Source: Dimargaris cristalligena (lineage: Eukaryota > Kickxellomycota > Dimargaritomycetes > Dimargaritales > Dimargaritaceae). Taken from it: a DNA stretch of 57,056 nucleotides. The translations under genes were made by a program, and so were the position numbers. Below are positions 11,739 to 46,723 of the stretch, in pieces. Where the stretch lies: assembly GCA_027576995.1 (NCBI GenBank), contig JANBQC010000120.1, forward strand, positions 1 through 57,056, written 5' to 3'. A model generated the notes under the pieces. The model was not told the DNA's origin. It saw only the letters and a program-made list of their open reading frames with translations, and made no database searches. Numbering within the stretch: position 1 is the stretch's first letter; each line of letters begins with the position of its first letter.

Positions 11739-11876
11739 TGTATGAAATTCAAACCAGCTGTATAAGATTTTACATAATACGTGTATGGACGAAAATATAT
11801 GAGAATAGCTTTTAACCAGTAATATTGGCCCCATCCCATGGATTTTTCGTTATACAGCCTGAATGACCTTCTCCCA
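11739..11876 (+). mobile_element. 138-bp MITE, copy A
   Basis: First of three copies of a 138-bp element with inverted ends (this copy begins TGTATGAAATTC and ends CTTCTCCCA) flanked by TA on both sides, as expected for a Tc1/mariner-type non-autonomous element. The inner part of the terminal repeats (GCTGTATAA near the left end, TTATACAGC near the right) is conserved. It is about nine-tenths identical to copy B by eye. It lies only 23 bases beyond the stop codon of the second methyltransferase gene, probably within its 3' UTR. Confidence 0.85.
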
Positions 11877-11899
11877 TATAGTATTGTCTTTGGCTCCAT

Positions 11900-13179
11900 T
11901 TAAGGTTTCTGGGCCACTACATAAAGGTACATATGGTCGCTGTAATATAACCCGTGGCGGCATACGACTGGTTCAACCGCCCGTTCTACTTCGTCCAATA
12001 TCTCCTTCTGGGTGGCTGCATCGGCCCATCCCGCCACATATCCATAGGCAATCGACTCAAGAAACACCCGCAAGGTAACGGACAACTGCACCACAACGGG
12101 CTCAATCTCCGCCCTGTGGACATGCATCCAGTTGTCCTCGAGAACGGCGCGATATTCTTCAGCGGTCGGATAGTACCAAGGCGATATTGCCACCCCGTCA
12201 TATCCACGTTGGTTGGCGGCAGCAATAAGGGCCGCATGAATGGCTGGAGCAAAAAAATATATGGCCAATATTAAAAGGGTGTGGTGATGGGAATAATAGC
12301 AGGTATATTAACAAACATCGTTAAACTCTTGATACATAGGGGGGAATTGAACAACGGGACCATGCATTATAATCATTAGTGCTCTATTTATAGTACTAAC
12401 ATGGAAGGCCAGAGCTTTGGTCAGAATAAACCTGATTGAATTGGCTCCCTGTGTCGGTTGGCTTTCTCTGCAACCCAGTGATTTTCGAAGGGTTTATCAA
12501 GCAATTACCTGAGATGGAATGGTGGGCGGGAAATTTGGCAATTAACACACCCCCGGGTTTTAAACACTGGTGTATTTCCCGAACCACTTTACCGGGGTCG
12601 GCTTTCATCCATTGGAGAGCTGTGGGTGAAGGTGAGGGTCAGAAAATAATAATTGGAGGTTAGGCTCTACCGAGTAAATAGCCTGCAAGAGTTGGCGGTA
12701 AAAATAAAGGCATGTATAGATACCACCCATTAAGTATAAGATTTTCAAAAAATAAAATAAAAAATGGCAAGTAGTAATGTGCACCGCCATCATTTACCCA
12801 ATCTGACACCATTAATTATATATGAAATATGCGAGTATTACTTACCATCATTTGAGAAGACAATGTCAAACTCATCGGGTTTAATTCCAGCTTCCTGTAG
12901 AGCGGCCCCGTCCGCTAAGCGGACGTCTTTGCAACCCCGCTCACGAGCGGCCTCAACCATTGCCGGGCTCTTATCCACGCCAACCACTTGAGCGCATTGC
13001 TCCTGTAAGGCAAACGTCAATACCCCGTCGCCACAACCGAGGTCAAGCAGCTTTGTTTCCGGAGTCAAGTACCCTTGGGTAGTCTCAAGTATCTGGCGCG
13101 CGAGTCTTGGCGTATCCCGGCCGCTATACTTACCGTACCACTGGGGTTTCCAACTGTCGACTTGAGAGGAAAAGGGCAT
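11900..13179 (-). CDS. Class I SAM-dependent methyltransferase, copy 2
   Basis: Three exons, 13179-12846, 12619-12509 and 12243-11900, give 262 residues, with splice positions matching copy 1 exactly and one extra codon in exon 2. Motif I is LLDLGCGDG; VVGVDKSPAMV, ALQWMKADP and CLKPGG follow as in copy 1. The C-terminal block SPWYYPTAEEY...LRVFLES is conserved. All catalytic-fold motifs are intact, so this is a maintained paralogue and not a decaying copy. The substrate is unknown. The 3' end abuts a MITE, which may supply part of the transcript end. Confidence 0.88.
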
Positions 13180-13953
13180 AATTGTATTTCAGGTACAATA
13201 AATAACCCACTGATGCGCAATGGGATATACGAAAAGAAATAGTCGAGTCGTGGAGTTCTGGTAACTACATCGATTTGGCGAAAATGGAGTATTTATACGA
13301 TTACCACGCGTTTGATGGTCTGGGACAGCCCTACAGGAAAAAGGAATCGTGCCAATATGGACTTCTATATTGATGTACACTGGAGGCTTGGATAAGAGAT
13401 ACTGCTCCGGATAGTTTCAAAACATTTACCAATCGAGATGAATCGGAACAGTGCTAGTCATTTACGCATCCCCACCCCCCATTTCCACATCGTCGTTCTC
13501 GAACTGTAGCACTGGATGGCTATTCCAAACCCGGTTGCGCTCTAACAAATTAACTTGAGAAATATATGCACACTAAACCAGTTTTACGGATCCTCGGGTT
13601 GCTAACATACCACAATATCTCCTGGCATTGGGGGTGCTCCAGTGAAATATTAGTGATTCATGTGGTACCCCTTCCGGATTAATGCAACGGTGAGCCTTTA
13701 TCGACCCCTTGTTACCTAATGGCTGAATTTTAACCCTGGCCCTTTAAATATATATCATGTATGGGGAATCGGTTTTTGAGCGACTTCTCTTTCTTACTAT
13801 CATAACTCCAAAACGTTATATCTATCATGCTAGGGAGAAAGGGATCCGAATCACCGCTGTGACCGAGGGGGAGATTTCAATGATAATTATAAATTTTATT
13901 CAGTATTATATTAAAATATAGAGAACCCGGGATGACGTGTGTTTATTTCCCGT
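13180..13953. other. Spacer upstream of methyltransferase copy 2
   Basis: AT-rich sequence holding the promoter of the methyltransferase gene. No coding region, RNA gene or repeat was recognised. Confidence 0.4.
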
Positions 13954-14213
13954 TTAATAACCCACGTTCGTTTGTGGGAGAGATTGGACCAGTAGATGTG
14001 CCCATTTAAGACCATGTGGTCCGTATCTTTCCGTCGCTGAAGTTGCCAAAAATCCATCGACACCTGTTTTCTTCGATGTGATTGCGTTCCGGATATTGGT
14101 TCGCGGTAATTTCGAACATGGTATTAAATACTTTCGATACCCTGGCATTAAAATGATTTTGAAAAAGAGCCCTTTACGGAAAGAATGGAGTTCTACTTAC
14201 ATGCGATAGCCAT
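13954..14213 (-). CDS. Candidate 66-residue two-exon microgene
   Basis: A 13-base first exon (14213-14201, MAIA plus one base) with a strong GTAAGTAG donor joins exon 2 (14141-13954) after a CCAG acceptor, giving 66 residues ending in LPQTNVGY. An ATATA-like element lies about 15 bases upstream of the ATG. The product is basic at its N-terminal half (WYRKYLIPC...KLPRTNIR) with a conserved-looking RYGPHGLKWAHLL block. This composition fits a small mitochondrial protein, but no family is recognised. The support is splice-site quality and phase; there is no homology evidence. Confidence 0.45.
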
Positions 14214-15760
14214 TTCACCGACCCTCACCCCTATATAATTCCGCGCTCAAAAGATGCCTTCCGCTCTAGAATCCCATCGGCAGTGGAAAACCCTACCCCC
14301 TTCTCACACGCTGCTCCCCCTGATAATCCTTTAATTACCCCGTACCCCTCCGCCTAAATACCCATATTTATAAACCAGTTTGTGCATGATGATTTACATA
14401 TTGTTAAATTAATGGGTTATTAATCGAATGCAAACAACTTGTTTGTGACCAACCAATGGAATTAGAAGTCCCGGATAAGAAGGTAGTGGATGATCACCCG
14501 GCTGCAAAATACAGTCATATTTGTATTATGCAATATACCCATAGTAGGTAGGTGACCAAATGCTTGTTTAGGCAAGGTAATTCAATGGGTACATTAATGT
14601 ACCAAACGATGAGCCAAACCATTATGTTGAGTGACTACTATGTCCATACCCATGCTAGGGCCGGTTATAATGACCGCTTCCAATATCCCCAAACTTGCCC
14701 TTCATGCGGAAGATGGTGCTGTGAGCATCGAGAAGCACTGAGCATGGAAATATGGTATAATTTATATACAGGAGACAATCTCTTACTGTGAAGTGTGCAA
14801 GTCATAAGACAATAAATTACATAATAGCCCGGCTATGCGAGAGGTATCCGTACGCTTCGTAGCATTTGGTGAAGCAGGTGAATATGCCTTACAGATTTAG
14901 GAGTGGTGGGTTGGGATACTAATTGTAGCCAGTTATACCCCCCCTCTCTATGAGAAATGGCCCATCTCCTTCACCAAACGATTCTACTTGCAATACGGGG
15001 TTGCCTGCAACTTATTAATGGTCATGTGATTCGCCCTTACACAAGTGCCATTAGGGGGTTAGAAAAATCCCAAGATGGCAACCATTAGTGTAGCAGCAAT
15101 AGAACAAAATTAGTCCCATAAGGGCAGAGCTGGGGATAAAATCCAGTACTTAAAGAGCCCTAGTCTGCCGTCCATGGATTCTTTAATGATCCATCTAAAG
15201 TTTAAAAGGAGAGATGAAGATTGGGTTAAATAACTACTGACGATCGGCTTCGACTCCGATATGACCTCGGGGCCTTTATCGGTCCAGTGTGTCGCAGATG
15301 TAGAAGCCAGCCTTCCCTTGATGGTAATAGGCTGTATGCCTCTGATCTCCTTTAATCCTGAATCGAAGGGTCATTCCAATTCTCAACAAAATAATAACCA
15401 ACGATCGAATTGCCCATTTGCATAACGAAGCTTTGGCCCACTGATTCTAGAGGACCTCGTAGCCATTCCAAAGCGCTGGCAGTAACTTGTCCCAGCTCGA
15501 TTGATTGTTTCTCGATTTTATGAAAAAATTCGGTCGGCGAACGATTGGAATCAGGCGATCCCTCCCTTCGACATCCGGGGAGGACACGCTCCCGCTAGTC
15601 GAAGAGCTCCCTATGTTACTCTCGCTTTATTAAGGCACTCGTTGTTCAGGGAGATCCAGCGAAGAACTTTTCCGCTTCCGCTGCTTGAGAGATCCCACCC
15701 ATTCAACCTCACATATTTTTCCCTCGTCGATTTTCCCATAATTTGACATTTCCCCTCCCC
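14214..15760. other. Spacer upstream of SPT8
   Basis: About 1.5 kb containing the SPT8 promoter. A short plus-strand frame at 14588-14791 contains CPSCGRWCCEH, a possible zinc-binding cluster, but has no other support. The stretch 15500-15760 is pyrimidine-rich and probably includes the SPT8 5' UTR. Confidence 0.4.
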
Positions 15761-17588
15761 ATGGACGCTACCATCGAGGCTTCATCGGCCGACGCCCCCG
15801 TGCCCGTGAAGAACGAATCGGCCGACGCTCCCGTACTTGTGAAGCACGAATCGACCGATGGCCATCCGCAGGACCCCTCCGCAACCACCTCCGCATTATC
15901 AACCGCCAAAGTTCCCACCAAGCCACTCGTCAAAGTCAAAGTCGTACCCGAACAGGTACCCGGCGAGGGCCAAGTGACCATTCTGGACCATCCGGCCAAA
16001 CCCCTCCGCCCCATCTACAAGACCTGCGGCACCTGTCGCACCTACAATGTGATCCCCTACGTCTCCGCTGTCCACCCGAATGCCATCTATTCGGTCGCCG
16101 CCACCCCTTGCAACAAGTGGGTCCTGACGGGATCGGAAGACGGCTACATCCGCAAATGGAATTTCTACGATTCCATGAACGGGGCCCTCCCCCTCACCCA
16201 GAGCCAGCGGCACATGCAAGTCGACACCGTCACCAAAGCCGGTGTGATTGCTTCGTACTGGGATAACGACAACACACCCGACCCGTATCCGGATACCATC
16301 CGAGGTAGCGTCAAAAACCCCTACTACAGCCGATCCCTCTCCCCTGTATACAGTCTGGATGTTCAGTCGGAGGCCATGTTCGCCGTATCGGGTCAGAGCA
16401 AGTACATTGCCCTGTGGGGCCTTCGGTTCGACGAGGGCCGGAAAATCCACGTGTTTAAGGAACATACTTTCCCCGTATCGGCCCTTAAGATCTCGCCGGA
16501 CGAATACGGCATGGTGAGCGGTTCGTGGGACAAGCGGGTGCTCTATTGGGACCTCAATACGGGCCAAGTTGCCCGAGAGTTTAAGGGCCATGTGTCCCAA
16601 ATTTCGGGGGTTTCATTCCGCCCCACCCCTCGACAGCCGACTACGGGGAGCACAGAGGGGGAAAAGGGAGCGTCCGCCCCCAGCCAGCCTATCCTGATGA
16701 CTACTAGCATAGACGGTCAATGTAAATTCTGGGATTTGCGAGACCCCACGCAGTTACCTCAGTCGTTCAATCCACAAGGGAAAAACCCACCGTGGTGCCT
16801 GGCGGTAAGTCCATCTTTTCTACCAGGGGGGGGTTATATTATACTGGCCAGATTGCAAGACTGGATCTTTTTCTATTGATAACTTGATGGAGGTGCGGAG
16901 CTTTTTCTTTAAATCACTAACTCACATTAGTCCATCTCGCAACCATATGTATATCGACTTCATCTACTTTCCCGAAACTAGAGCGCCTGGTCGCCTGACG
17001 GCAGTAAAGTCTACATCGGCCGCCGTAACGCAACTGTAGAAGAGTGGGACTTCTCAATGGGCCAATTTATCCGAACCTTAAAGCTCCCCAATAACTCAGG
17101 ACCAGTTACAAGTCTAACCTGTACCGTCAATGGCAAACAGATAGTCGTGTAAGTGTGCACATGCCTTTATTTAGCATAATCCCTAACTATGCACTTGTCT
17201 AACACAGCTATAAAAGCGACCCCCGCTCTGTAGCCTCCCCAATCTAGTACAATGCGTTTGCTAACCGTAATTATATATCCTTATTTTGGTGCATCCCATC
17301 TGCCTATGGTTTACATGTCCTTCCACTCCCCACACCAGAGGCTCCCAAGACAATCTTCGCATGTGGGATCTGGAGACCTCCACTGACGACGACAAGTCAG
17401 TCGGTGTTCCGTTCCAGGTGATTCCGGGCCACCACGGGGTGGCCATCTCGTCAGTCATCATCGATCAAAGCGGCCGTTTCATGATCAGCGCATCTGGAAA
17501 CCGAGGCTGGGACGGCATCAACTCCAATTTCTGCTACTTCTACGAGATGGTTCCCCTCAATGAGCCTATTCAACAGCCTATCTTGTAA
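15761..17588 (+). CDS. SPT8: SAGA complex subunit Spt8 (WD40)
   Basis: Three exons, 15761-16804, 16982-17148 and 17339-17588, give 486 residues. Spt8 is the SAGA module that contacts TBP. The N terminus (about 1-85) is low-complexity with two repeated VKxESxDAP units; the WD40 part starts at SAVHPNAIYSVAATPC and includes GSEDGYIRKWNF, VSGSWDKRVLYWDL, then the family-specific IGRRNATVEEWDF. The second junction rebuilds NGKQIVV/GSQDNLRMWD, which fixes the intron ends. Donors are GTAAGT in both cases. The ATG at 15761 is the first in frame. A second SAGA-linked WD40 gene, TAF5, lies 13 kb away; this may be coincidence. Confidence 0.93.
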
Positions 17589-18364
17589 TTTATGATAGTA
17601 ATGTCCTTCATCGGATTAATTGATTGGTAATAAATTTACAATAGTTTTTTATTCAAGTAAATATTATAACGACCATAAAATAAAAACTATACAATGAAAC
17701 AGGGAATCACAGTCGCCGGCTATCTAATGTGGAAATCGGGTAGAGTAGAAGTACATTACCAATGGTTAGAAAATGGTGCTGAACAACGTCCACAAGCCGG
17801 AATAGTCGACAATTGCTGGTGATCAGAAAATGCCTAGTACTGGCCGCTTAATCATTAAGGCTTTTTGCCTACAATCATTAGACCGTCGTGATATAATTCA
17901 TCATATAGTAGAGCGACAGGGTAGTATAACAAGCTCAGCGAAACTTACCAATTAACTGAAAACTGAAACGACGAACACATTGACCTTTCGTGACAAGGTT
18001 TCTATTAAACTATTCGAAGGAAGTAAAGTGGATCCGGGTATTCAGCAGTTAGTCACCAGAACATTCAAATCATCCCACCAAATCTCGGTATTGATGATTC
18101 AGTCCTATTTGTCATCACTAGTCAGACATATGCTTGTTAAATATTAATACATCATTACCATTAGTTTGCGATTTAGCATAAATAAAATCGGCAATTACCT
18201 TACTGTCGCGAACTACAAATGGTCAACGAACTACACCATTTATTATAAACATAACACGATCTAAGGGGTTTGATGGAAGTAGTACAAGGACAGGGCGGTT
18301 ACAAGGTATTAGTCACTGTCAAAGCCAGTTCCAGACACGTATTCAATGCTGCTTGGGTGTTCGG

Positions 18365-18612
18365 TCAGCCAAAAAAAATAATTGCCAAATGAAAGGGTTT
18401 GTCGACATGAGAGATAACCTCTTTAGACTCGTCTTCAATGATCATCAATCCTACACAAGAGTGCATCCTGAAAGAGACACAGTCAGGATGCACGTAAACT
18501 ACAAGACGCGAAAATAGAGGTTTAACTTACCGATTATTGGAATAGACAATACCCAACCCTATACCCACATAGAAGAATATAAATGATGAAGCAGTTGATT
18601 CTCCAATTAGGC
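18365..18612 (-). CDS. Candidate exon pair of a small membrane protein
   Basis: Minus-strand exon 18612-18531 follows a TTTGGTTCCAG acceptor and ends at a GTAAGTT donor; it encodes a hydrophobic helix (FIFFYVGIGLGIVYS). A second exon, 18467-18365, follows a CTGAC branch-like sequence and a TTTCAG acceptor and ends in TGA. Phases agree. No start exon is identified and no family is recognised. AT-rich DNA gives hydrophobic frames by chance, so this is tentative. Confidence 0.25.
18461..18493. repeat. Perfect 11-bp inverted repeat with 11-base loop
   Basis: GTGCATCCTGA and TCAGGATGCAC are exact reverse complements separated by 11 bases. On the minus strand the left arm contains a branch-like CTGAC and the right arm contains the CAG of the candidate 3' splice site described above. 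Confidence 0.7.
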
Positions 18613-19326
18613 CTGGAACCAAATGGGTTAAATACTAGTCCGTTTTTTTTGTAAACGTATCAAGAATATTGGGAAGCAAAAAATTCTGAGTGAAATCTGG
18701 CTTCATCAATAAAAAAAATAAAAGATGGGCGGTATATTTTCAAAGTCATGTGATGTCATGTGACCTTAGAAATGGTCAAAGTAGTCCGTCCATTTAGTTG
18801 ACGAGCTGTTTCATGGTAAATTGATGGGGGCCTATCACTTCTATCTAGCAACATTGGTTTATCCATTCAGTCAACATGATTATAATCTCAGTTACTAAGG
18901 TGCATCAAATCAATAGCCGAGGGGATACCGGAAACCTTAATACCACGCCAAAAATAATGGTAGACGTTTCAAAAGAAAAATACAATAACAATCAATTCAC
19001 ACTCTACAACCTGGGGAGCATTTGCGTGTGTGAACAGCGCCACTAAGTATACTGAAAACCACACTTCCCAAGAGACATCTATAAAGGCCGCCGCTCCATT
19101 GTAAAATACAACTATTTCAGAGGCAGCTTACTGACCACGCGTCCAATCATTCATTTTATGTTCTAGATATGTTTTATTCATTTGTTTTAAAACAATTGGT
19201 ATGGTTGTAAGACTGCATAAACGTCAGTGGTTGGAGAACAGTGATAATAAAACGTTGGCAAAGAGAAAATAAAAATAAAATGTAGAAAACTATAACTTAG
19301 TATATCGGATATAAAGTAAATGGAGT

Positions 19327-22253
19327 TTACGACTGTTCTCGGCGTAAAAAGTACACATAGGCTCCCGACACGGGGGGTTCCGGGGCCGCCACCACTTTGT
19401 TGTCATTGAACAGCACCCAAGTGTTATGCTCCGGGTGCCAAGTGTGGGCCACATAGTGGCCACAGTGGATGGAGGTACCCTTGTGGGAGATGAAACTCTG
19501 CAGCTGGTAATGTCCGGGGTGACGGGCAGCGGTGGCCAAATCCTCCCCGTCATCGATTGGGTTGCCGGACATCGCCAATCCACCCTCGCCCGAAGACCCG
19601 GTCGCCTGATCATAGTCGCCCTCCGGATGGCTGAAAATCCATTCGATGGCTCGCTCTAAGTCGTGTCCCGTCTGTTCCAGAGCCCGCGTGGCATGATCGT
19701 CCCCGAAACCCATACCCACCAACATCATCAGCTGATCAGCATCGACGGGGCGACTACTACTGGCGGCACCTGCCCCGGGGGCACTATGGGAGTTTCCACC
19801 GTCGGTCGGAAGGGGAGTGTCAATGTTAGGGTCATCCATATGCTCCAGAAGCCAATTCATGGCAATCCCCGCTCCGTTATAACCCGTTTGGTGTAAGGCC
19901 CTCCGGCAGCGCACCTCGGGGAACCCCATGGCCATGAGTTGATCCAACACGGCCAAGTCCAAGGCGTCGACCGGGGCTGGTGCTTCAGCCTGCGGGGAAT
20001 CCTCCAAAAGGGAGATCTCGTCGGGCTGTTGGCCGTGGCTACGGTAACGCTCTAAGTCAATGGGGGCGTCGTCCCCCGAACCCGACACACGGCAGGGCAG
20101 GTTGACCGCCGTTTGGACCTTTTGGGGAACCCAGTTGATCAGCTGGAAGCGGCCCATGTGTAGCACCAAAAAGGCCGGGAAAGTGGCGAACCGAACCGTC
20201 TTTTGGGCAATGGTGGCAGTCCGGCAGTGGGGACAGCGGTACTGCTCGATGGATTCCGGGCCCGACCACTGGTCGAGACAGTCCCGGAGCGATAGGGGTG
20301 ATTCGGACTCGGGGATGGGCAGGGTCAACGCATTGGTCTTTACTGTCGTGTATCGCACCCGTTTGCACTGCAGGCAGTGGAGACGTTCCTCCAGCTGAAA
20401 GTCAAACTCTTTGGTTGGGTCGTGAACTCCACCTTCCACCGCACGCTCTTTTTGGTGGGTTACTTTGACTGACTGTTGGAAGAATTCGTAGGCATCCTGT
20501 TGTTGCATAGTGGCAAAATCCGGGTGGCCCGCGCCAATGAGCATTTTGAACATGCGCGGCGAGATACCGGCCTGGCCCCGCATTTCCGATTGATTGTCAC
20601 CGGATTCGAGGGGGACGGAATACCGACCACTAAACATACCCTCGGCCAGTTTGGCCGTTTGGCAGAAGAAGCAGCGGGCGGGCTGTTCCGGGCAGGTTAG
20701 GGGATGGCTGGCGGCCAAGGAGAAATACCGGTCGCGGAAGGCGGGGATAGCCATGACACACTGGAGAACCGAAGCCATATAGCAGCTGTTACCTAGATTC
20801 ACCAGGCCAGTCAGGCCCGGACCGAAAAGTGGAAGCAACTGCTTGCCGTCTTCTGTGGTCATGCTAAAATCGAACTCGTTGTTCTTTTCCAGCTGCAGCT
20901 CGGCCATACTCTTGTCCGTTTTGTGGACATGGTCGATGTTGATACCAAAGGCAGCCAAGTGGTCAGCCAGATCAGGATCGGTACGTTCGTCGTCACAAAG
21001 GTAACAGTATACATCCGCCGTTCCTTCAGGGCTAATAGTTCCTAGTTTACAGGCAACGGGGTGGCCGGTGATCTCGAAATGAGAAATGCCGTGATTGTTA
21101 CCACCTGACCCGTCGAAATGACGACGGCCACAGCCCACGTTGCCGCAGGTGAGGCACAGCCAGAGATTATTTGTTAAATCACACTCATGGCAATGGTCCC
21201 GAGCGCCGCTATTAGAGGCGGAAGGGCCAAGGGTCAGGGTGTGTTCACAAGGCATCAGGTCATCGGCTTCCCAGCTCTGAATCTCGGACTTCTTGGTCGC
21301 GGAAAGGGAAGTATTAATCACGGTAACGGCAAGGGCCACCGCCTCAGGGAGGGGGTCGCAGGGAAGTGTGAGGGCACAGGCGTAGCATTTAAGGGCAGTA
21401 GTATGCTGATATTTTTCTTCATCGTTAGCCTCTTCCACGATCGCCAGCTTGCTAATTTTGGCGGGCTTGGGGGAGTCTTGTTGATACTGAACAGGTAAAG
21501 TATAGTCGGGGGGGGGGGGTTCGAAATTGGTTAATGAATTGAGTACATCGGCTGGAATAGGTAGGTTTGGGGCGGATACTCGTCCAAGAGAGAATATTTA
21601 AATTGTGGTGGGATGGAGGGTAAAGGATATGCATTTGCAACCAAACTTGATCGCAAGAGGAACTCTTCGGCCGACTTTTGGTATTTCAACCGCTTGGGAC
21701 TTGGGTAGCCCATGGGCTCTACAGACTAACGAAGGGAATACTGTATCCACTGATCACTTACGGAGGGTTTTAGGGTGCGCTTAATATTGAGGGCCAAAGT
21801 ATGACCAGTCTTCTGGTAGTGTTTAAAGCCATGCTGCCGTATCGTGTCTGTACAGCCACCGTTAAAGCATTCGAGGCAGATATCGAGGCCACCCGCGGAA
21901 TCCTGGGAAATGTAGGCGAAATCCAAGCAAACCATGGAAGCAGGTGAGTTATAACGTCACAATAGGAAGCCCCGGTACGAGTCCCATGGAATAACGCCCG
22001 CAAAAACCACCGTGTGGAAACTGTTCGGCATGAATGATAGTATGGGGGGCAGAAGTTGGCCCCATACATTAGCGCGCGGGCCCGAGCATTATATAGGAGG
22101 GGGTGTATATAAAAGAGGGATGTGCTGTACCTGGGTATCGAAACATAGGGTGCACTCATCCTTGTATACCACGGGTACCGAGGTGGAGCAGTACTCCGCA
22201 CCCATCACATGGGAGCACCATGCGTTGGGAAGGTGGCAACCGGGGGAATTCAT
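19327..22253 (-). CDS. UBP14: Ubiquitin C-terminal hydrolase UBP14 / USP5 type
   Basis: Deubiquitinase that disassembles free ubiquitin chains in the cytosol. Exons 22253-22131, 21902-21762 and 21486-19327 give 807 residues (yeast Ubp14 781, human USP5 858). The first two exons carry the variant N-terminal zinc finger (YKDECTLCFD, LDICLECFNGGC, HYQKTGHTL). The ZnF-UBP domain follows (HCHECDLTNNLWLCLTCG...GHPVACKL). The Cys box GLVNLGNSCYMASVLQ puts the nucleophile at about Cys323; two UBA domains (GFPEVRCRRAL and GMGFGDDHATRAL) sit inside the catalytic fold, and the His box is GHYVAH at about His765. All junctions are phase 0. A 12-G run lies in the intron near 21508. Confidence 0.95.
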
Positions 22254-25039: not shown

Positions 25040-25276
25040 ATGGTTAAGTTCTGCCAACTACTTATCTCCATTGCTCTTATCGGTGCCATGCTCGTCGCAG
25101 CCTCACCCTTGCCGCAACCCCGATCTGCCGGAACGTACCCCATAAGCTCACAGGTTGGCTTCGCCGTAGGTCATGCTATTGAAAAATACAAGCAAATCAA
25201 AAGCAGCGCCAGGAACGGTGTTGAAAAAGTGAAAAATCGGCTAGGAATGGGTCGTAAAGCCCAAGTCCCCCAATAA
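25040..25276 (+). CDS. Small secreted cationic protein
   Basis: A 78-residue product with a textbook signal peptide (hydrophobic LLISIALIGAMLVAA, then ASP cleavage near residue 22). The mature part of about 56 residues is rich in Lys and Arg, carries no Cys, and looks helical (IEKYKQIKSSARNGVEKVKNRL). Its tail, GMGRKAQVPQ, contains a GRK sequence that could be a dibasic processing site. The ATG at 25040 starts the signal peptide; the frame extends upstream without a signal-like sequence. No family is recognised; a secreted effector, antimicrobial or signalling peptide are all possible. Confidence 0.6.
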   Translation: MVKFCQLLISIALIGAMLVAASPLPQPRSAGTYPISSQVGFAVGHAIEKYKQIKSSARNGVEKVKNRLGMGRKAQVPQ

Positions 25277-37500: not shown

Positions 37501-37988
37501 CGGCTCTACCGAAAGAGGACCTACTCACTCAGCGGATTTCGGCCTTAACCCAAGGGGCCTTGGCCATTTATACGCACCAAGTGATGTTGCGGCTGCGCTC
37601 TCCGCTAACAGCCAGTGGCCGGTCACAAATGGTGACCGACTTTAATTACCTGTCCAACATTGTACAGGCCATGGGTATTGAACCGATCCCCGTATTCCAA
37701 CACCTCAGTGAGATTGTCGGATGCCCGAATCCCGAGGAGTCATGCGAGTCAGTATCCCCGCCGCTTTCCGGTCCTTCTCTGCCGAACCGATTCTTGACGT
37801 GGTTGGATAAAGCCAAGTCAACCTCAACTGCAACAGCGGACCGGCCTGCCGATCTAGGGCTGGGCTATTTGCAGTTTGTCCTTGGTTTAACTACTAAGGA
37901 TATCAGTGACCGTATCATTGAACTAATTAGCCCGTCGTCGTCAGAACCATCCCCAACCAATTCAAATAAGAGTTCCGCCAACGGCTGA
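34545..37988 (+). CDS. COG7: Conserved oligomeric Golgi complex subunit 7
   Basis: Subunit of lobe B of the COG tether in retrograde Golgi traffic. The N terminus (DLLEWLNGQL, then SLQSQLQFLIQEVQYKHDQTVSRL and LRYRDAIM) is the COG7 coiled-coil start; the C terminus contains the typical QMVTDFNYLSNIVQAMGIEP segment. At 1147 residues it is much longer than human COG7 (770), with acidic or Asp-rich insertions (around codons 245-265, 520-540 and 790) and Ser/Thr/Pro linkers. Single exon. The ATG at 34545 is the first Met of the frame. Assignment is good; the size increase is seen directly. Confidence 0.88.
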   Translation: MSIDLTAFGKPQFDLLEWLNGQLNPRHSPAEGQRNGGQTAITTGTPDLASDHRGLTSLQSQLQFLIQEVQYKHDQTVSRLTQYVPLIDKDLGALSTQIGSIRSFLLRYRDAIMRGTALDQTPSLPLAPAIPASQAESAAAVATATTSTMDPAGNSRSPSPDPCLRRLVELLTAWSDLEAQRTTIQEGQQWKTLEEQVRAWTLAGDFMSAAGRLELARRHFERMSPRTISATLPESIGADGYVLKTTDADNSDDSLTSDEDQGAGSLKKEEVEGQAKRKDLIESLTQELVNVAHEEVQAAFRQRARLVYNRFQELTGLAPVGDLHSVSPNSSALSLAEWYRVLGRIDRLHIFWESYQTLLSEPLLDFWTAVTTPSLADDSPTGSIGNPTPDALHRPTDTLGRVEHYFTALVDFVWGETEWLTTTLSGPTEVPGDPLYQLLSNLFSHIQSSLAQWVQFVAKSIADRIPDDTVWDHQYPFIVDLYHAVSNHCVTLDQILQEFTARRNHASQMSAKNLPGHFANIGYNDDDDDDDGDGRALIGGFSDWTLTEKTTAPQSPPEAKPNNSSDAVDSDILIPLLEPFRILQEQFPSIENQWLCNQIDRGFNGLLEPLAAIHPLAPSLHSTDVLAKPDYLLVRTVLEDACQRITGLPEAFKTSLNRLVRLVRGRMWATYLPIIQEAYVALRSTKLRSLIAEVNRCSALPDVTTLLAFAPWNPRRDDRSKAGPHAPRYHHHPSPSHQQIEIGFNVLRLWQTFVVGLPQLEDYIRQAFLQEAPDVRGLLDPVESTPRNDDDDATPHSTVSLPDRALEGIGSDIERGGLVQFIRNTDATPAFTAPESLLRRNASSVAHLGWTSFTPLWVAMMVPLFAPLAQFTALDDWHQDRSAAASVSTMNVLIPSFSLSPSSPSTQVGEYLLTLPQLCDTYLNDAGHCELLVTLVDPWLMALGQATLESRPTAAEIKSVAEHGPLEPFFSDFPFIVDATAPASTTALPKEDLLTQRISALTQGALAIYTHQVMLRLRSPLTASGRSQMVTDFNYLSNIVQAMGIEPIPVFQHLSEIVGCPNPEESCESVSPPLSGPSLPNRFLTWLDKAKSTSTATADRPADLGLGYLQFVLGLTTKDISDRIIELISPSSSEPSPTNSNKSSANG

Positions 37989-38050
37989 GCCATAGTTTCT
38001 GCTATTTGATTATCGATGGCTGCTTAGGACATGTTGTTCTAATTGTGGTC

Positions 38051-38830
38051 TGGATATACACTCACTTGTCCCTGTTTTATTGTCACGGAATGCTTATTGC
38101 TATGTATGGCGCATTCCTTGCTGCAGAATCAAGCATAGGACCACCCTGGTCGATGCCAGTTCTGTACCTATGTTTACTCTGGTCCGGTTTACGTAAGTGT
38201 AATGGCCCCGACTGGTTCTTTATGCTAAAGAATTCTTGCACTACGCATGTAGTATCTGTTCTTATTCCCGCTACCCTCATATAAATACCGACGGATTTCC
38301 CGACCTGCAATATAAAAAAAACGATTACACTCTTATATTATTAATAGATTATTTATGTTTTGAATAGTATTATTACTGTCCCTAGCTATCAGTGGCAATC
38401 TTCTTGTTGCTGTTCCCCAGTCTATTAGTATCACTCCTGGTGACAGGAAACCTACACGCCCTACGTGTCCCTCTTCCCTGCGACTTACTATATTGCAACC
38501 ATTAGGAGAGATCGACCCCATTAGTGATGTTGAGGTCACCTGATCCTCCCTACTCTAAACTAAAGCAACGCCTAAAAGGCGAAGAACGGTTACCGGCCCC
38601 ATTAAAACATAATAGATTAGCCCGAGGTATAAATTAGATAATGATCTGCGCCACCCGGCAAACCTTATGTCTTAATAAAATTCTTATACTTATATCTATA
38701 CATTTAGTTATTATCCCCCTCAAACCCCAACTCGGCTGAGGTAGTAGATCCTAGCCCAACTCGGCCTACCTGTAACAATATACATACACTGCCTAAAAAG
38801 CTATAGATACATCGTTAAGAGCAGGTTAAG
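38051..38830 (+). repeat. Left copy of diverged LTR-like direct repeat
   Basis: Sequence between the COG7 stop and the gag-like gene recurs in diverged, shortened form at 40146-40590. The best blocks are CTTGCACTACGCATGTAGTA here versus CTTACACTGTGCATTTAGTA there, and the shared TGCCTAAAAAGCT near the right end. Boundaries are approximate. This layout fits old long terminal repeats, although no primer-binding site is seen before the gag ATG. Confidence 0.5.
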
Positions 38831-38835
38831 GTACC

Positions 38836-39930
38836 ATGAATTATCCGCCTACAGCGAACCCGGATCTTGCGCCGACGTCTGTGGCGTTCACAGCTTGCTC
38901 GAGCCATTTTTCACCATCTACAGTCTCGACTTTACCGCTCCACCCATCCTACGCAACCCCGCCGACCTCCCGACCCCAAGAAGCTACACCAATCGCCGCC
39001 CCGACTTGCCAGTTGCCCCCCATCTATCAGCGACCGGTACCTAGCTCTAATGGACATCAGCCTCACCCGCCGCCAGCCACCACTATGCCCAACTACTATG
39101 GGTACCCAGGCTATCATTATCATTATCCTTACTATGTACTGCCGTCCAGGCCAGCGCCCACCTTTTCTGGGCTAGCCAACGAAGACGCAGAAGAATGGCT
39201 TCATAGCTTTGATTGTTGGCTGACTTTATACCCCTCTGATGATCGCTAACAGGCCACCTTGGTACTCTGCGCGTTCATTGGACAACCCGTCGAATGGCTA
39301 TCCGAAAAAAGTTCTGTGATCGCGATATTGGCTTGGACCAACAAATACCAGAAATTCATCACCTTGGCCCAAGGAGAAAAAGAACACCACCTGGACTTCT
39401 TGAGCCGATTTAGACGGATTAACAGTCAATTGGATGAACCCCTCCCCGAATCCTTTCTTAAGAATCGCTATAAAGCTGGCCTCAGGCGGAAAAAAGGTCA
39501 CTTATACAGATATCCACCAACCTCCCACAGCGAGGATGGGTATGAGCATGCGTATGAGAGCAAGGATGCGGATACGACCGTCGACCACAATGGAGCTCGG
39601 CTCGGGCAACCACCTACTAATTATTCGGTACCTCAAACGGGAGGGAATCGTCAAGAACCGCCCAGTGGCATCCCGCCACCCACCCAGTACCCCGGAAGCC
39701 ACCCCCCGAGGACCGCAGCCCAAGTCCCCAACCAACCGCCCACCACCAACATTGACCAAATAACCAGGCAGTTGCAACAACTACAGGCCAACTCAACCCA
39801 ACGGTAACCAGTTCCCCGGGAATGCTTTGTGTGCGGCAGTACTGATCATGTGGCCCGTCACTGTCGCATAACAATATGCATTGGCTGTCGACTGCCTGGC
39901 CATTTTGTTCGCCTATGCCCTCATGCATAA
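38836..39930 (+). pseudogene. Ty3-type gag-like gene with two in-frame TAA stops
   Basis: One continuous reading frame of 365 codons runs from ATG 38836 to TAA 39928-39930, broken by TAA at 39247-39249 and 39805-39807 with no frameshift. Part 1 contains FSGLANEDAEEWLHSFDCW, the usual start of a retrotransposon Gag; part 2 contains FLSRFRRINSQLDEPLPESF; part 3 holds two CCHC zinc knuckles, CFVCGSTDHVARHC and CIGCRLPGHFVRLC, both perfect. No protease, reverse transcriptase or integrase follows. It may be a decayed gag-only element or a formerly domesticated Gag. C-to-T change at CAA would explain both stops; translational readthrough is an alternative. Confidence 0.8.
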
Positions 39931-40002
39931 CCCAGCGTACCAGTGAACCTTACTTACGAAACTTAATGTTTACCCTAAACCTCCCTTGTTTTAAAAGCTA
40001 TA

Positions 40003-40140
40003 TGGGTGAACTTCAACCCAACTGTACAAGATTTTACACAATATGTGTATGGGATAATATGTGGGAGAATAACTTTTGACCAGTAATATTCACCTCATCA
40101 AATGGATTATTCGTTATACAGCCTGGATGAATATCTGCCA
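40003..40140 (+). mobile_element. 138-bp MITE, copy C
   Basis: Same length and orientation as copies A and B, flanked by TA on both sides, starting TGGGTGAACTTC. It is the most diverged copy (about four-fifths identical by eye). It lies 72 bases after the end of the gag-like frame and directly before the right-hand direct repeat, so it probably inserted into the retroelement. Confidence 0.82.
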
Positions 40141-40145
40141 TATTG

Positions 40146-40590
40146 AACTATACATGCCCTTCCTTGGTCGCCTCTTATATTTACAGTATAGTTATAGCCA
40201 TGTATCGTGTATCCCGCTATCGCTGGGCCAGGGTCTACGTTCACCCTGGTATAGCTTATGCATGAGTAGTAATCCCAACTGCCCCCCCTCCGTTCTTTTG
40301 AGGATTTCTTACACTGTGCATTTAGTATTTGCATTTATTCCTACTGCAGTCGCATTAATACTTGCGGCTCTCCCGTTCTAAGAATAAACAAATGACTAAA
40401 CCCTTGTTATAGTTATGAAATATTTATATTTCGAGTATTTTTATTATTATTATGAATGCCTCTATTTAGATTCCCAGATGCCCAGTGGCAGAGATCCTGA
40501 TACTAATCCTCATTGGATTCGTTTTACTCAGTTCCCCCGCTGCCTAAAAAGCTCTACATGGATCGCATGGTTTGCCATTATAGCAAGTTA
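40146..40590 (+). repeat. Right copy of diverged LTR-like direct repeat
   Basis: Diverged partner of 38051-38830, in the same orientation, about 330 bases shorter because of an internal deletion. Shared blocks include TCTTTTGAGGATTTCTTACACTG-like text and TGCCTAAAAAGCTCTA. Boundaries are approximate. Confidence 0.5.
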
Positions 40591-41606
40591 AAGCTTAGGT
40601 TCTTTAGGGGAAAAGCATGGCTGGCCTTGGGATCAATCCTGGTTATAAAGGGGGCTAGCTGAGACGTGCATTCACCAGTGCACAGGGCTAACCTTAAGTC
40701 GCCAAGTCAACAATCAGGTTCATTTACTAATCAATATTAAATGGGCCAAATACGGTACTCGGGCTGCATAATTAAATGAAATCGGGGTCGGTTTTATAGG
40801 CTACACTATTATAGCGAAATAATGGACCAGCATAGGGGTTATACATGAGCAAATGCCATCCGGGGATGGGCTAAAGAAATATGAGAAATTTGCCAAAATA
40901 GTATGGGTGTTCTGAGCCGCCAATTGGAATTGTGGACATGTCAGATTATACCAATTCAGCCAATGGTAGGTGGTGTTGTTTAAAACAAATAGAGCTGGTG
41001 GAAAGTGAACCGTAAATATAAAATAACCAAGGTATAGCAACTTAAACGGTCGGTGGTAGTCGTGTTATGGGAATAAGGTACACATACGTATAGATATGTA
41101 TATAAGCGTAATTTGATCAGTGCATCTGGATAATTTAAATAAGAGAAGGAAAGAAAGAAAAGACATTAGAGGAATTAGTAAGAGTGGTCATTACAAGAGA
41201 CCGGCTCAACCGCCGAGGAACAGCACTGGGGTGTCAATCAAGGTAAAAAAAGCAGGCACCATTAAGGACGTGTTAACTGAATGACTTCGGATAAAGGAAA
41301 ATGAAATAAATCATGAATAAAAAATAAAATCGAAAAAGTAGCAATGGAAAAAAATTGACAAACAATGTGCTAAAAATATTGCAAAGTCAATACCTAAATG
41401 TCCGAAGGATAGGTACTACCCCGGCAGTATGCTAAAATATGTATAACTGTAGCGAGGATAACGGGCACCCGTCATTCGGGTTATCTTCTACCCGGCGGGT
41501 TAAACAGGAAGGTACACGGTACGAGCAAGGTGTAAATAAACATGGTACGGCTATGGCCTTATACACTTGCATCAAAAGGTAAGGGAGTGAAGCTACTCCA
41601 CAAGGC
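40591..41606. other. AT-rich spacer
   Basis: About 1 kb of A-rich sequence downstream of the unrecognised gene at 41607; several poly(A) runs and AATAAA signals near 41310-41340 are on the plus strand. No gene recognised. Confidence 0.4.
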
Positions 41607-42785
41607 CTAGTGCTTAGAGGACGAGGGAATAGTCGTACACTGGGAAAAAGGACCCAGCATCTTCTTCCATAAAGAAAGACGCGGGGGGAGTTCGGAAATC
41701 GAGACTCGAGATTCCGCATCAGAGTCCTGGGCAGCCGTGGTGGAAGGGTGGAGGGATGGGCTAGACGGAGGCGCAAGAGTAAGGGGCGGGTCCGTGAATC
41801 GTAGGAGTTGGGAGGTCGGAGTTGGAATCAAGGGGAGGGAAGGGGCACTCGATACGGCCGAATCGCAAGGGGGTGGGTTGATATCGGCGGTGAATGGTGG
41901 GTCGTGAAGAGCAGTTTCAACTATAGACACGGGGGTTATTGGGTCGGAGCCCTCGTCAACCGCGGACGAAGGGACTGGGTCGACAAAAACCGGTTTGGCA
42001 GAGGTTGCGTGGGCCCGTTTAAACCCCCGACGGGTCCAGGTGCCGGCCTTTTTAAAGGAGGATGAGAGTGAAACTAGATTACCGATGGAGTGGCGTTTGG
42101 CTATGGGGGACTCGGGGGCGGGGGTCGAGGGAGTTATAGGGGTGATTGGGGACTCTGGCAGTTCATCCGACGGCTCAGGCTCCGAAATAGACTCCGAGCT
42201 GAGAGCCGAAGGGGCATTGATGATAGATTCCCGCTTGCGTCGGAAAGGCAGGGACCAGCGTTTGCCGCTGCCAATGGAGGAAGCACCGCTACCACTACCA
42301 CTACCACTGCCCGTGCCACTACCGCCGAGGGAGTCGTCTATAAGGTGGTCGGGTGGGAGCCAGGCAATGGAGTCGGCCCGGGGCGACAGGGGCGGGACCT
42401 CTTGTCGGATACTGGACTTGCGGGTGGAAGGCTTTTGACTAATGCAGCTAGAGCGGAAGACGTTTTGCTCCTCAAAGGAATCGCGGGGGTCGCTAGGAAA
42501 AGCTCTGAGGTTCAGTTCCGGATGGATATACCCCTGCAGGTCGGTAGTGAAGGTAGCGGGTACGCTCGTCGCACCGGTCGGGCGGGGCTCCTTGGATGTG
42601 AGTTTGGCATGGGCGGCGCGGACATCTGTTAAAGCGGAAGTATCCTCGGCACTCAGGTCGGCGGTGGTAGTGGAATCCAGGTATTTTTCAAAAGCGGACA
42701 TAAGTTCGGTAGAGAAGCTCAGGGTCATGGGACGACCGGCCCCCAGCCGATAGGTCTGGGGCTCAATGTAGTAGGAGGTGTTCAT
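41607..42785 (-). CDS. Unrecognised low-complexity protein
   Basis: A 392-residue frame from ATG 42785. The N-terminal ~120 residues (SYYIEPQTYRLGAGRPMTLSF, TDLQGYIHPELNLRAF) look folded and conserved; the rest is Ser/Pro-rich and disordered, with a (GS)n run near the middle and a KRHSIGNL phosphorylation-like motif. No domain is recognised. The open frame continues upstream through hydrophobic text, but a pyrimidine-rich CCCCCAG just 5' of the ATG is a good splice acceptor, so the true start may lie in upstream exons at 43130-43744. A cytoplasmic regulatory or scaffold role would fit, but this is a guess. Confidence 0.6.
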   Translation of the reverse strand: MNTSYYIEPQTYRLGAGRPMTLSFSTELMSAFEKYLDSTTTADLSAEDTSALTDVRAAHAKLTSKEPRPTGATSVPATFTTDLQGYIHPELNLRAFPSDPRDSFEEQNVFRSSCISQKPSTRKSSIRQEVPPLSPRADSIAWLPPDHLIDDSLGGSGTGSGSGSGSGASSIGSGKRWSLPFRRKRESIINAPSALSSESISEPEPSDELPESPITPITPSTPAPESPIAKRHSIGNLVSLSSSFKKAGTWTRRGFKRAHATSAKPVFVDPVPSSAVDEGSDPITPVSIVETALHDPPFTADINPPPCDSAVSSAPSLPLIPTPTSQLLRFTDPPLTLAPPSSPSLHPSTTAAQDSDAESRVSISELPPRLSLWKKMLGPFSQCTTIPSSSKH

Positions 42786-43129
42786 GACGGGGTTCGCCTG
42801 GGGGAATATAGGGGAAATAAAGCGGAGGAAAAGGGGTCCAGAATAGGCTGGCTGAGGTATGAAGGGGACAGGCTCCCACGCAAAGTCCAGGGTAGCGAGT
42901 GGAAAATAACTGCAAGAACAATCAATAATAACAATAATAATACTACTAATAGTAATAATAGTGGCCAAGGTAGCTATGCGGAAATAGAAAATAAAAGGAG
43001 AGGAGAGGCTAGAGTAGGCATAAAACCAAAACAACTAGCGAGGCAGTATTTATAATATATATAAAAAAAACTCGAAAGGTGGGACAAGCGGTACTTAAAA
43101 ACCAGCCGGACGAAAATGCGGGCACACAG

Positions 43130-43744
43130 TTTTGGCGTGGGCGGCAAGGTGGATGAGTCGTTAGGAGAGAAAAGAACCACGGCTTGGCCAAAGGGGTCAC
43201 GGCTGGTGTAACGCAGGACAATCGCGGGGTATATGCGCATATAGACGGAGGCCACAGTGGCGGCAATAGTCTTCACGGGCAGTCAGTTATAAGGAAGCCC
43301 AACAGGAGCGGGCTGCCGCTTCATTTCTTCTTACTCTTCTTCATATTATTAATAATAAAGAACATGTTCTCTGCGAACTCCTCGCCCTCTTGGAGCTTTG
43401 CAGATGGATGCGCTCCTTTGCTTTGACTTTGGCTTTGATACAGCTTCGAGCCCCAGACGCCGTATCTGTGCGCTGGTGAATACCCACTCTCACTGAGCCC
43501 AGTGTGAAGTCCCCCCACCCAACAACCCACGGATCTGGTCAATCTGCACCCCACTGCTTTCTTCGGCGCCTGAATGGAGAGAAAGAGAGGCCCTCAGCCC
43601 GAGTGGTATTCCAGACAGCGTCTCCCTGTACCATCGGTCATCGCTCGATGACTTCTCCATGACTAGGCTACGATGTCGAGCGCCACCCAACGTACACTCG
43701 GGACTTTCCGGCCAGGCATTCGTGCCTGGATCATGCAACGCCAT
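43130..43744 (-). CDS. Unresolved coding region, possible 5' exons
   Basis: GC-rich minus-strand sequence with overlapping coding-like frames. One starts at ATG 43744 (MALHDPGTNAWPESPE...) and passes a strong pyrimidine-rich TCCATTCAG acceptor at about 43570. A second runs from there to a TGA at 43321 (SKGAHPSAKLQEGEEFAENM). A third, 43276 to about 43130, reads SVYMRIYPAIVLRYTSRDPFG and ends near possible donors. Splicing could connect these to the gene at 41607, but I could not find one model with consistent phases. Confidence 0.35.
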
Positions 43745-44217
43745 CCGCACGACGACCAGCCTGGGTTCCTTGTCTGAGCACCCTCCTTATCTCTGACTGA
43801 CAGGTATTTTATGAAAAAAGCGGCTACGCATACAGCGCGCTCCTGTCTCGTAGAAGATGTATATTATATACCCCACTACCCCTTCATTCTACCCCCCTCC
43901 TGGTTCGACGTATGCGCAACTCAAATAATCACATCACCCCCTGCTGTGAACCTTCCTTCAAAGGTTCACCCCCCTCAGACGTATCCTTTGACTCGTAGAC
44001 TGTCTCCGAATCCACTTCCTACTCAGGAATGTCCCCTTCGGCGGGCCGATTAAACCCAGATATTCCATGTATCAGCCCAACCGGTCTTCAGATGTACATA
44101 CGGCGGTATTCATTGATTCGTAAACTTTTCATTGTTATTTAACTACGGTCAATTTAACTTTAAAATGACTGATTTTCCAATGCAGAAACGACCTTCTAGG
44201 CCACAACCATCGGCCAG
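43745..44217. other. Spacer downstream of the GCIP-like gene
   Basis: Short gene-free stretch holding the 3' end of the GCIP-like gene and the promoter of the preceding minus-strand locus. Nothing recognised. Confidence 0.4.
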
Positions 44218-45484
44218 TTACACTCGCTCGGATGCGTATTTATGCACCCGGGGATACCAGCGGGACTGGGAATCCATTTGGGGAACCACATGTGCCGCCA
44301 GTCGGCCGACACATTCCTGAAGTTCATCGTAGACTGATTTAATTTGGTCCACATCCTCCTCTGACCAGATGGCACATACTGCCTCGTCCACTGCTTCCGA
44401 GACGAGCTTGCCCTGTTTCAGCAGCTCATCTTGCCAGCCCACCTGCTCCGTCGAACCACTGCCACCTGTCCGACTAAGCACCCCCTTGTCGATGGCACTG
44501 TACAGGCCCGGAAGTTTCTGAATATAGCTCAACATCTTCTGGGCAAACTCCTTTTTACTCGCCGACCAGGACCCCGCGTCAGTTACGTTTAACCCAAAGT
44601 TGTCGTCGAACTCGTCGGCGCCATCCTCCGATGAGGACTCGGGGGCAGCCAACGCTTCCGCCAGTTCCTGAGACGCATCCGCTATCAGAGGGGCAACATC
44701 GGTGACCCACCGCTGGCGTACCGCTTGCAGATTGTTCTTGGACCCCGAGCGCAGCCCCTGGCAGGCATCCCACGTAAGTTGCGATTGGCTAAGCACCCGC
44801 TGTTCCAGTTCCGCGCCAATAGGCCGCTGGGCCACCGACCGTTCAAAGGCCTGGCGAACGGAGTCCGCTACGTTGGATACGGCGGTCAGCAACCCCTGCA
44901 CCAATCCGTAGTATTCGTCAAGCAGGGTGGCACCAGCCCCCGCCGGAAAGGTCTTAATAAAGGAGACAACTAGTGGCAAATGGTCTTTGATGAACCGATC
45001 GCACGAGACTTGGCCCAGGGAAGCGACGGCGACATTATTGAAGCTCAGGGCGATTTTGGTGCAGTCACTTTCCATTTGAGTAGTCAGATCCTCTGTTTGA
45101 AAAATAACAATAGGCAAGGTACATACAATCATATTAGATACTGGTTTTAGTAGAGGGTGGCGGTCCACTATACGTGATGGAGGCATGTAGGTCCTTAGTA
45201 TCCTTTGCCGATAGGAGTCGAGAGCAGTTAAGTGTCCCCAAACCTGGCCAGTTGAACCCGGGAGAATGTCTGTCCTCGGGGGACAGCATTATATGGGTAT
45301 ATTGGTGGTTGAACTTACTCACAATTAACTCGAGCGTTTGACCTTCCGCATCTAGCTGGAGATTGGATTCCTGGTTATACCGGCGGAATCCCGGGTTCTC
45401 GACCAGAGACGCCAAAGCAGACCCCTGCTTGGCTAACTGGGCCAAGGAGGACTGGTAGCGAGCGATGGCCTCGGGGGTTACCAT
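44218..45484 (-). CDS. GCIP / cyclin-D1-binding protein 1-like
   Basis: Two exons are certain: 45484(or earlier)-45319 and 45092-44218, joined in phase 1 with a GTAAGT donor, giving at least 346 residues. The family marks of the Grap2/cyclin-D-interacting domain are present: NNLQAVRQRWV, an acidic DEFDDNFG patch and a helix-rich C terminus with LPGLYSAIDKGVL. Human CCNDBP1 binds cyclin D and is a negative regulator of cell-cycle transcription; the fungal role is unknown. The ATG at 45484 is internal to a longer open frame (SQPLSTLLGQFIPD precedes it), so a further 5' exon probably exists. Confidence 0.75.
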
Positions 45485-45800
45485 GTCGGGAATGAACTGA
45501 CCAAGTAAGGTGGACAACGGCTGGGAGCTTGTACGGCAAATGTGAGAAGAGTAAAGTAGCCAACCTCTAATGGACTTAACAAACAAATGTCTAGGGAATT
45601 CAAACAAGCTAGCCAAAGCGGTTATTTTAACGGAGGAGAAGGAAAAGAGGAAAGTGAAGACAGTGTAAACATTCTACTTGTTGGATATATTCAAGTAAAA
45701 AAAAAATCACAGAAATAAAAAAATTGAATGTGGTCTTTAAATTATAATCAATTAAGTTGCTTTGGGATGGCCTATTAAACCGATTATAGAGCAATATTTC

Positions 45801-46078
45801 CTAACTATTCTCTACTGACCCAGTTATAGAAAATCGGATAATACTACTCTTACCTGCATGACAATCATAAACCGTTTGTCGGCCTATGCTCTGAAATCAC
45901 TTTTAAGGTCCCAATTTGAAGCGGGCCCAGTATAGTATTATAGATTTCTCCAGGAAGCTAAGCTGAGCTAACTTACTCCCTTTCTAGACGGATAGTACTC
46001 GTGATCAGCCTGTGTGGTACGGCTTAAAGGCAGGTTTTCATATTCACCCAAAAGCAATCTAAAGTGGGTGGCGGCCAT
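45801..46078 (-). CDS. Candidate three-exon microgene
   Basis: Exon 46078-45977 starts at an ATG in good context and encodes MAATHFRLLLGEYENLPL..., ending at a GTAAGTT donor. A second exon, 45890-45854, follows a TTTCAG acceptor and ends at GTAAGAG; phases agree. A third exon, 45814-45801, would close the frame, but the second intron would then be only 39 bases, so the 3' part is doubtful. It could also be the 5' end of the GCIP-like transcript. Not recognised. Confidence 0.3.
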
Positions 46079-46390
46079 GTCTTATAAATGCAACTCGGGT
46101 TTCGATCATTAGCTTAACTTGGTCCGTCAAAATAGGTATGGCTTGTTTACAGCCATAGGTGGGGAATACCACATTAACCATCGCGTGAATTGAAAATACA
46201 GGAGCCCATATCCGGGACATTTACCCTTTAAAAAACACCTTAGCATAACAATCTCGACAATAAATCCCCCCCTTTTTTTTGCAATACATAATTGAAGTAC
46301 CACCAATAGACTCCCTGCTCAGAATGAACGATATTTAAATAATTATATAGATTCCTCTGCTAAGAATGGAAAGGGGCGATAAAAAACATA

Positions 46391-46528
46391 TGGGTGAACT
46401 TCAAACCAGCTGTATAAGGTTTTACATAATACGTGTATGGGCGAATATATATGAGAATAGCTTTTAACCAGTAATATTGGCCGCATCCAATGGATTTTTC
46501 ATTATACAGCCTGAATGAACTTCTCCCA
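46391..46528 (+). mobile_element. 138-bp MITE, copy B (best preserved)
   Basis: Begins TGGGTGAACTTCA and ends with TGAACTTCTCCCA, giving inverted termini that can be matched over about 27 bases (TGGGwGAAsTTCA...GCTGTATAA). It is flanked by TA at 46389-46390 and 46529-46530. No coding capacity. It sits 195 bases beyond the HSP90B stop codon. Confidence 0.88.
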
Positions 46529-46723
46529 TATGTAGGTAAAAAAAATGAGGGATGGTTCATCACCGGGATAACGCTTGTGGTCGAGGCGAGAGTTCGAGCA
46601 GAAATTTATATCAATCATCGTATCTGAGGGGCCATTCGATAGGTAGGTCCACAAGGCGGAATTATTAAAGAGCTGCTCCTAATGACGAATATGTGGCACA
46701 ACTATCGGAACCCTTCTGGAAAA

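Follow-up and report, generated by a model that had tools for sequence, protein, structure and literature searches.

The 57,056-nucleotide contig JANBQC010000120.1 of Dimargaris cristalligena (contig C120 in our numbering; this whole stretch is called the window below) carries three copies of a short element. These belong, very probably, to a family of non-coding, non-autonomous DNA transposons (miniature inverted-repeat transposable elements, MITEs) with a 4-bp target duplication. Each window copy is 144 bp long and consists of an ATAT, a 136-bp body running from GGG to CCC, and a second ATAT. With both duplications included, copy 1 spans 11736–11879 (body 11740–11875; profile match to positions 1–144, 153.3 bits), copy 2, of an older subfamily, spans 40000–40143 (body 40004–40139; 1–144, 117.7 bits) and copy 3, of a young subfamily, spans 46388–46531 (body 46392–46527; 1–144, 167.9 bits), all on the plus strand. 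The body ends vary slightly, as copy 1 starts with GTA and copy 2 finishes with GCC. Alignment showed the three copies to be homologous, in one orientation and mutually gap-free, with copy 2 differing from the family consensus at 22 positions and copy 3 at 3. A sequence-only reading of the window had already described three related copies in the same orientation, and the profile, which covers all 144 positions in every one of them, confirmed this. The length of 138 bp given in that reading counts the body together with a single base from the ATAT on either side.

The same reading had assigned TA target sites to the copies. ATAT is palindromic, so ATAT targets by themselves do not distinguish a TA duplication from an ATAT duplication. 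Given this ambiguity, we searched the assembly (27.09 Mb, 779 contigs) with end patterns for ends having a non-ATAT flanking 4-mer, which returned 23 right and 20 left ends. All six copies present in both lists (6/6) carry identical 4-mer direct repeats, namely AGTT, ATTG, AGAT, ATCT, AATT and AAGT, and a seventh non-ATAT copy, at C9:32919 in sampled sequence, has AAAT on each side. None of the seven duplicated 4-mers contains TA; the A..T form is kept in five of the six paired 4-mers and also at C9:32919. As 4-mers without TA are repeated whole, all four bases being duplicated in each of the seven copies, the duplication is one of 4 bp and the TA assignment has to be withdrawn. In the window the ATAT duplications, read from the sequence, lie at 11736–11739 and 11876–11879 for copy 1, at 40000–40003 and 40140–40143 for copy 2, and at 46388–46391 with its partner at 46528–46531 for copy 3 (4 bp, strandless; length taken from the non-ATAT copies).

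ATAT was present at both ends in 46 of 48 high-scoring copies, a figure that is biased upward because most copies were fetched with ATAT-containing queries. For older full copies, nearly all of them untargeted, the count was 10/15 as delimited, and at C8:111131 an end shifted by one base also reads ATAT. Two MITE copies of different subfamilies were found head-to-tail at C9:35145–35428 (positions 4861–5144 of the sampled stretch L035) with one ATAT in common, as would be expected if one copy had inserted into the duplication of the other. Here the younger copy has probably inserted into the duplication of the older one.

Abundance was assessed in several ways. A 144-base query built from the three copies returned 919 candidates at first look; the 40 that were scored yielded 41 matches, of which 2 fall in the window and 39 outside it (best E = 8.8e-63). 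A 30-base right-end pattern with up to three mismatches matched 532 sites in the assembly (0 for the reversed-pattern control), 270 on the forward and 262 on the reverse strand, i.e. the two orientations are about equally frequent, and the flanks are unrelated. Searching the sampled sequence (51 records, 345 kb, partly overlapping) with a profile at E ≤ 1e-3 identified 70 separate copies, whole or fragmentary. The stretches L031–L050 (194 kb) contain 35 copies, 20 of which are the hits that the stretches were centred on and 15 are others, whilst the window contains 3; extrapolated to 27 Mb, and with clustering ignored, the total is very roughly 2,100 (from the 15 copies) or 1,400 (from the 3).

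The 63 full copies delimited by the profile carry between 1 and 44 substitutions each relative to the consensus (689 in total) and 6 indel events, the most diverged being about 30% from the family consensus. The family comprises subfamilies and would have spread over time from several source lineages. The elements are short, without coding capacity, homogeneous in size and present in many copies, with inverted ends and a target duplication; the high copy number, ends and duplication, and the lack of room for a gene, bear out the earlier description of them as a MITE family. The family was not found among the matches listed in literature searches, which does not prove that none is in print, and the end pattern had no match in viral_contigs. 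In C3, C128, C130, C155, C218, C383, C449 and C717, MITE ends were also observed no more than about 600 bases from a contig end.

In copy 1 the left terminal inverted repeat (11740–11765, plus strand), which ends in a conserved CTGTATAA block, and the right one (11850–11875, minus strand) were placed by copy alignment and divergence by block. Those of copy 2 (40004–40029, plus strand, and 40114–40139, minus strand) were placed by copy alignment, as was the left repeat of copy 3 (46392–46417, plus strand); for the right repeat of copy 3 (46502–46527, minus strand) the right-end pattern search was used in addition. The inverted termini that had been put at about 27 bp are thus present, with a length of 26 bp, and they are imperfect, the consensus ends being alike at 20 of 26 bases and different at 6. 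Divergence within the body is lowest at positions 23–30 (0.032) and 115–122 (0.014), which make up the inverted CTGTATAA block, and lies between 0.041 and 0.118 in the remaining body blocks. Copy 3 folded better than its shuffles both as RNA (z = -2.88, 0/200) and as DNA (z = -2.12, 4/200), as is expected of an inverted repeat. In the arms of 24 chosen copies, standard pairs occupied 78.8% of cells compared to 78.1% in shuffled arms (6/500 as high), and the measures of covariation did not exceed those of the shuffles (double changes were seen in 1 pair compared to a mean of 3.1). Since covariation is not above shuffles, the conservation of the ends resembles that of a protein-binding sequence and not that of pairing.

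The target was then defined from the 112 flanks of 56 copies bounded by ATAT on each side, compared with 1402 noncoding ATAT control sites; the flank bases fall outside all queries used to fetch the copies. Among these, 106/112 had A or T as the third base outside ATAT, compared to 64% of controls (p = 3e-14). A or T was rarer at the first base outside (52/112 versus 69%, p = 1e-6) and slightly rarer at the second (57/112 versus 62%, p = 0.018), and positions 4–10 showed no difference from controls. The target is therefore a symmetric WNNATATNNW with a mild preference for G or C adjoining the ATAT. This symmetry would suit a dimeric enzyme, and the motif is unusually sharp for an otherwise ordinary MITE.

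Element length was conserved, but not fixed. Of the profile-delimited full copies, 57/63 measure 144 bp. A pattern of two exact motifs found 106 copies, and among the 100 listed there were 85 of 144 bp, nine of 142 bp, four of 143 bp, one of 146 bp and one of 132 bp; by demanding exact motifs this pattern favors young copies in the length counts. The six 142-bp copies with printed letters (6/9) have lost two bases from an AT run on differing backgrounds. Two of the 143-bp copies, in C144 and C147, have a deletion in common along with further changes, suggesting that this variant has itself spread. By tree parsimony the internal branches carry 135 substitutions and 0 indels, the terminal ones 220 substitutions and nine gapped columns. 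The terminal rate of 6 indel events to 220 substitutions predicts 3.7 indels for the internal branches, and the chance of finding zero is about 0.025. The structurally constrained length of the sequence-only reading is therefore supported in part, by the internal branches, but the 142- and 143-bp variants speak against a strict rule. A body of 136 bp comes close to 13 turns of the helix, and in so short a DNA the two ends might need to lie on the same helical face in order to be brought together. That an undescribed transposase lineage reads the 10-bp WNNATATNNW and favors a near-fixed element length would account for the 135-to-0 record of substitutions to indels, and we regard it as unlikely.

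We propose that a transposase encoded elsewhere would bind both inverted ends, probably at the conserved subterminal CTGTATAA block, and would cut out the 136-bp body in a cut-and-paste manner. The body would then enter a symmetric WNNATATNNW site with a 4-bp stagger, and the central 4-mer, usually ATAT, would be duplicated as a result. The transposase comes most likely from a superfamily with AT-rich 4-bp duplications, and this feature of the family makes a Sola2-type enzyme the best named, if tentative, candidate for mobilizing it. Excerpts of a study of Sola2 in two slime moulds, Dictyostelium fasciculatum (DFa) and Polysphondylium pallidum (PPa), give AT-rich 4-bp duplications of the form AWWT, e.g. 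ATAT, AAAT and ATTT, and short, partly imperfect inverted ends of 12–13 and 21 bp (PMC3627910). The MITE ends are likewise short and imperfect, and its duplications agree with these in length and AT-richness (mainly ATAT, also AAAT and AATT). According to the same excerpts the Sola2 elements are large, with Fanzor genes, and some encode a transposase (PMC3627910), whereas the MITE is short and non-coding. A review, in the part available, puts the duplications of Sola as a whole at 4 bp (PMC10741241). The rule for non-autonomous elements in Repbase, as quoted in part of a further source, asks for duplications of equal length and for ends that agree over positions 1–11 with 1 mismatch (PMC4455052). 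The likeness to Sola2 is a resemblance in one feature, which is no proof of membership.

A search for an autonomous partner was carried out with end patterns that allowed an altered interior, giving 0, 3, 15 and 25 matches in the assembly (0, 0, 0 and 6 for reversed controls). Judged by eye, the set of 3 and the majority of the 15 look like diverged or rearranged MITE ends, and the 25 like such ends together with chance matches; none of these matches was demonstrated to border a long element. A scan of the sampled sequence for elements with 4-bp duplications gave two overlapping AT-rich hits at one place, which were judged to be noise. PF13843 had no match in the assembly; this search was equally silent in control genomes and hence uninformative. 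The assembly may also be incomplete.

Several observations weigh against the proposed origin. The end-pattern searches identified no autonomous element, and no Sola protein was among the queries. Two of the 25 matches, C110:42955–42984 (minus strand) and C531:13681–13710 (plus strand), agree exactly with the end pattern over its positions 1–16, for which about 0.06 would be expected, and have a different interior; they could be termini of a related or of an autonomous element. Five of the seven non-ATAT duplications (AGTT, AGAT, ATCT, AAGT and ATTG) fall outside the AWWT form of Sola2. Of the non-ATAT ends, 17/23 right and 14/20 left ones have no partner in the opposite list, where a partner flanked by ATAT or too diverged at its end would not appear. 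Comparisons within the window, the sampled loci and the assembly revealed no empty site: the 3′ flanks of a methyltransferase-like gene pair in the window gave no convincing alignment, the sole candidate in the assembly for copy 2 was the copy 2 locus itself, and there were none among the matches listed for the sampled loci.

Two other origins were weighed against a Sola2-type source. Stowaway/mariner MITEs resemble this family in being short, non-coding and high-copy with inverted ends and AT-rich targets, but they duplicate TA, and a TA-duplicating element with a preference for ATAT targets is very improbable here. Although TA lies within ATAT, and ATAT targets taken by themselves fit a duplication of either 2 or 4 bp, the seven TA-free 4-mers are duplicated whole. 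An autonomous mariner transposase with the same termini, which the sequence-only reading had suggested looking for, was likewise not found. PF13358 (DDE_3, mariner-type) had four short matches in the assembly (C715:11257, C756:1073, C248:1491 and C82:56180), three of them above the cut-off and two with internal stops, but by eye none was linked to MITE ends, the nearest listed end (C248:2693) being about 1 kb off and pointing away. Several of the Academ, Chapaev/CMC and Ginger superfamilies and the piggyBac/Kolobok relatives use 4-bp duplications, and one of these, or an undescribed superfamily, may plausibly be the source instead; the five duplications that are not of AWWT form and the end-pattern searches, which tied no transposase to the MITE ends, are both consistent with this. 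A TTAA duplication, which is that of Kolobok, was rejected along with the piggyBac case, the family having ATAT and its variants, with TTAA in 0/7 of the non-ATAT duplications. The available part of a study of coral piggyBac-type MITEs speaks to the same point: these, named CMITE, have a TTAA target and are like this family about 100 bp long and homogeneous in size, with a conserved interior and a 4-bp palindromic target, but their ends start with CCC in the families shown (PMC2872659), where ours has mainly ATAT and GGG.

The sequence-only reading had further placed each copy 3′ of a gene, at 23, 72 and 195 bp from a stop codon. Copy 1 lies 20 bases from its outer ATAT to the stop of a minus-strand frame ending at 11900, which we presume to be methyltransferase-like (the name comes from that reading and the look of a motif), and copy 3 has 192 bases between its outer ATAT and the stop of the HSP90 frame (46724). 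The 72 bp for copy 2 was not reproduced, as it begins 192 bases past the stop of the plus-strand frame 39250–39807, which had no Pfam match at E 0.001 and owes the name gag-like to the same reading. Placement across the family was assessed in the sampled sequence with codon-usage gene models (coding segments ≥150 bp), which are crude and missed the methyltransferase-like exons; controls came from the larger loci and the window, many copies lie in loci of 3 kb, and several tests were run. None of the 70 copies overlaps a predicted coding segment, compared to 115/1220 ATAT sites (p = 0.002) and 41/509 WNNATATNNW sites (p = 0.006). An introner, considered since the right end reads TTATACAG, was set aside on this count of 0/70. 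Of the copies, 10/70 lie at most 250 bp from a predicted coding 3′ end, compared to 185/1220 ATAT sites (p = 1.0) and 97/509 WNNATATNNW sites (p = 0.41), and 7/70 at most 250 bp from a 5′ end, compared to 185/1220 (p = 0.30) and 100/509 (p = 0.05). Distances to the nearest coding end showed no difference from ATAT (p = 0.55) or random sites (p = 0.47). A position 3′ of a gene is thus not supported as a property of the family.

After 17/70 copies in loci without a predicted coding segment were dropped, the nearest end was a 3′ end in 34/53 copies, compared to 534/1065 ATAT sites (p = 0.049), 254/455 motif-matched sites (p = 0.31) and 2801/5442 random positions (p = 0.07). This was so for 14/17 older copies (p = 0.012 against ATAT, 0.043 against motif-matched and 0.013 against random sites) and for 20/36 younger ones (p = 0.61 against ATAT and 1.0 against motif-matched sites), the bias being carried by the older copies. 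Copies may land anywhere between genes and survive longer 3′ than 5′ of them, which would bias older copies towards 3′ ends and would fit the avoidance of coding segments; with small numbers, several tests, crude models and an overall p that varies with the control, we consider such retention rather doubtful. The 3′ bias of older copies, if real, would hint at retention and not at targeting. That the family is instead a conserved host element, either a structured RNA or a 3′-end signal, is scarcely credible. Its mostly constant length, the folding of copy 3 and the slightly raised arm pairing would suit this, but copies occur in both orientations between unrelated flanks with exact target duplications and show no excess near coding 3′ ends. 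A structured RNA was rejected on the covariation described above and on there being no Rfam match at gathering scores within the window.

The methyltransferase-like genes near copy 1 form a pair of multi-exon genes on the minus strand (7431–8709 and 11900–13188, about 4.5 kb apart) with around 72% DNA identity between coding sequences in two stretches and 3′ flanks that are not convincingly similar. The 295 bases examined 3′ of the gag-like frame (39850–40003 and 40144–40284) are single-copy in the assembly. Host genes recognized were SPT8, dihydroxy-acid dehydratase, COG7 and HSP90, a set that would point to a fungus, possibly of an early-diverging lineage.

With respect to gene regulation the family looks ordinary, no attraction to gene ends having been found. 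In kind, too, it is an ordinary MITE family, one whose duplication is corrected to 4 bp and whose target motif is sharp. Rare off-consensus insertions exposed the 4-bp duplication behind the palindromic ATAT, correcting a plausible TA/mariner label, and the target motif and the inverted CTGTATAA block together provide handles for locating the missing transposase. Were the Sola2 assignment to hold, an apparently fungal genome would harbor a Sola2-type MITE in high copy number.

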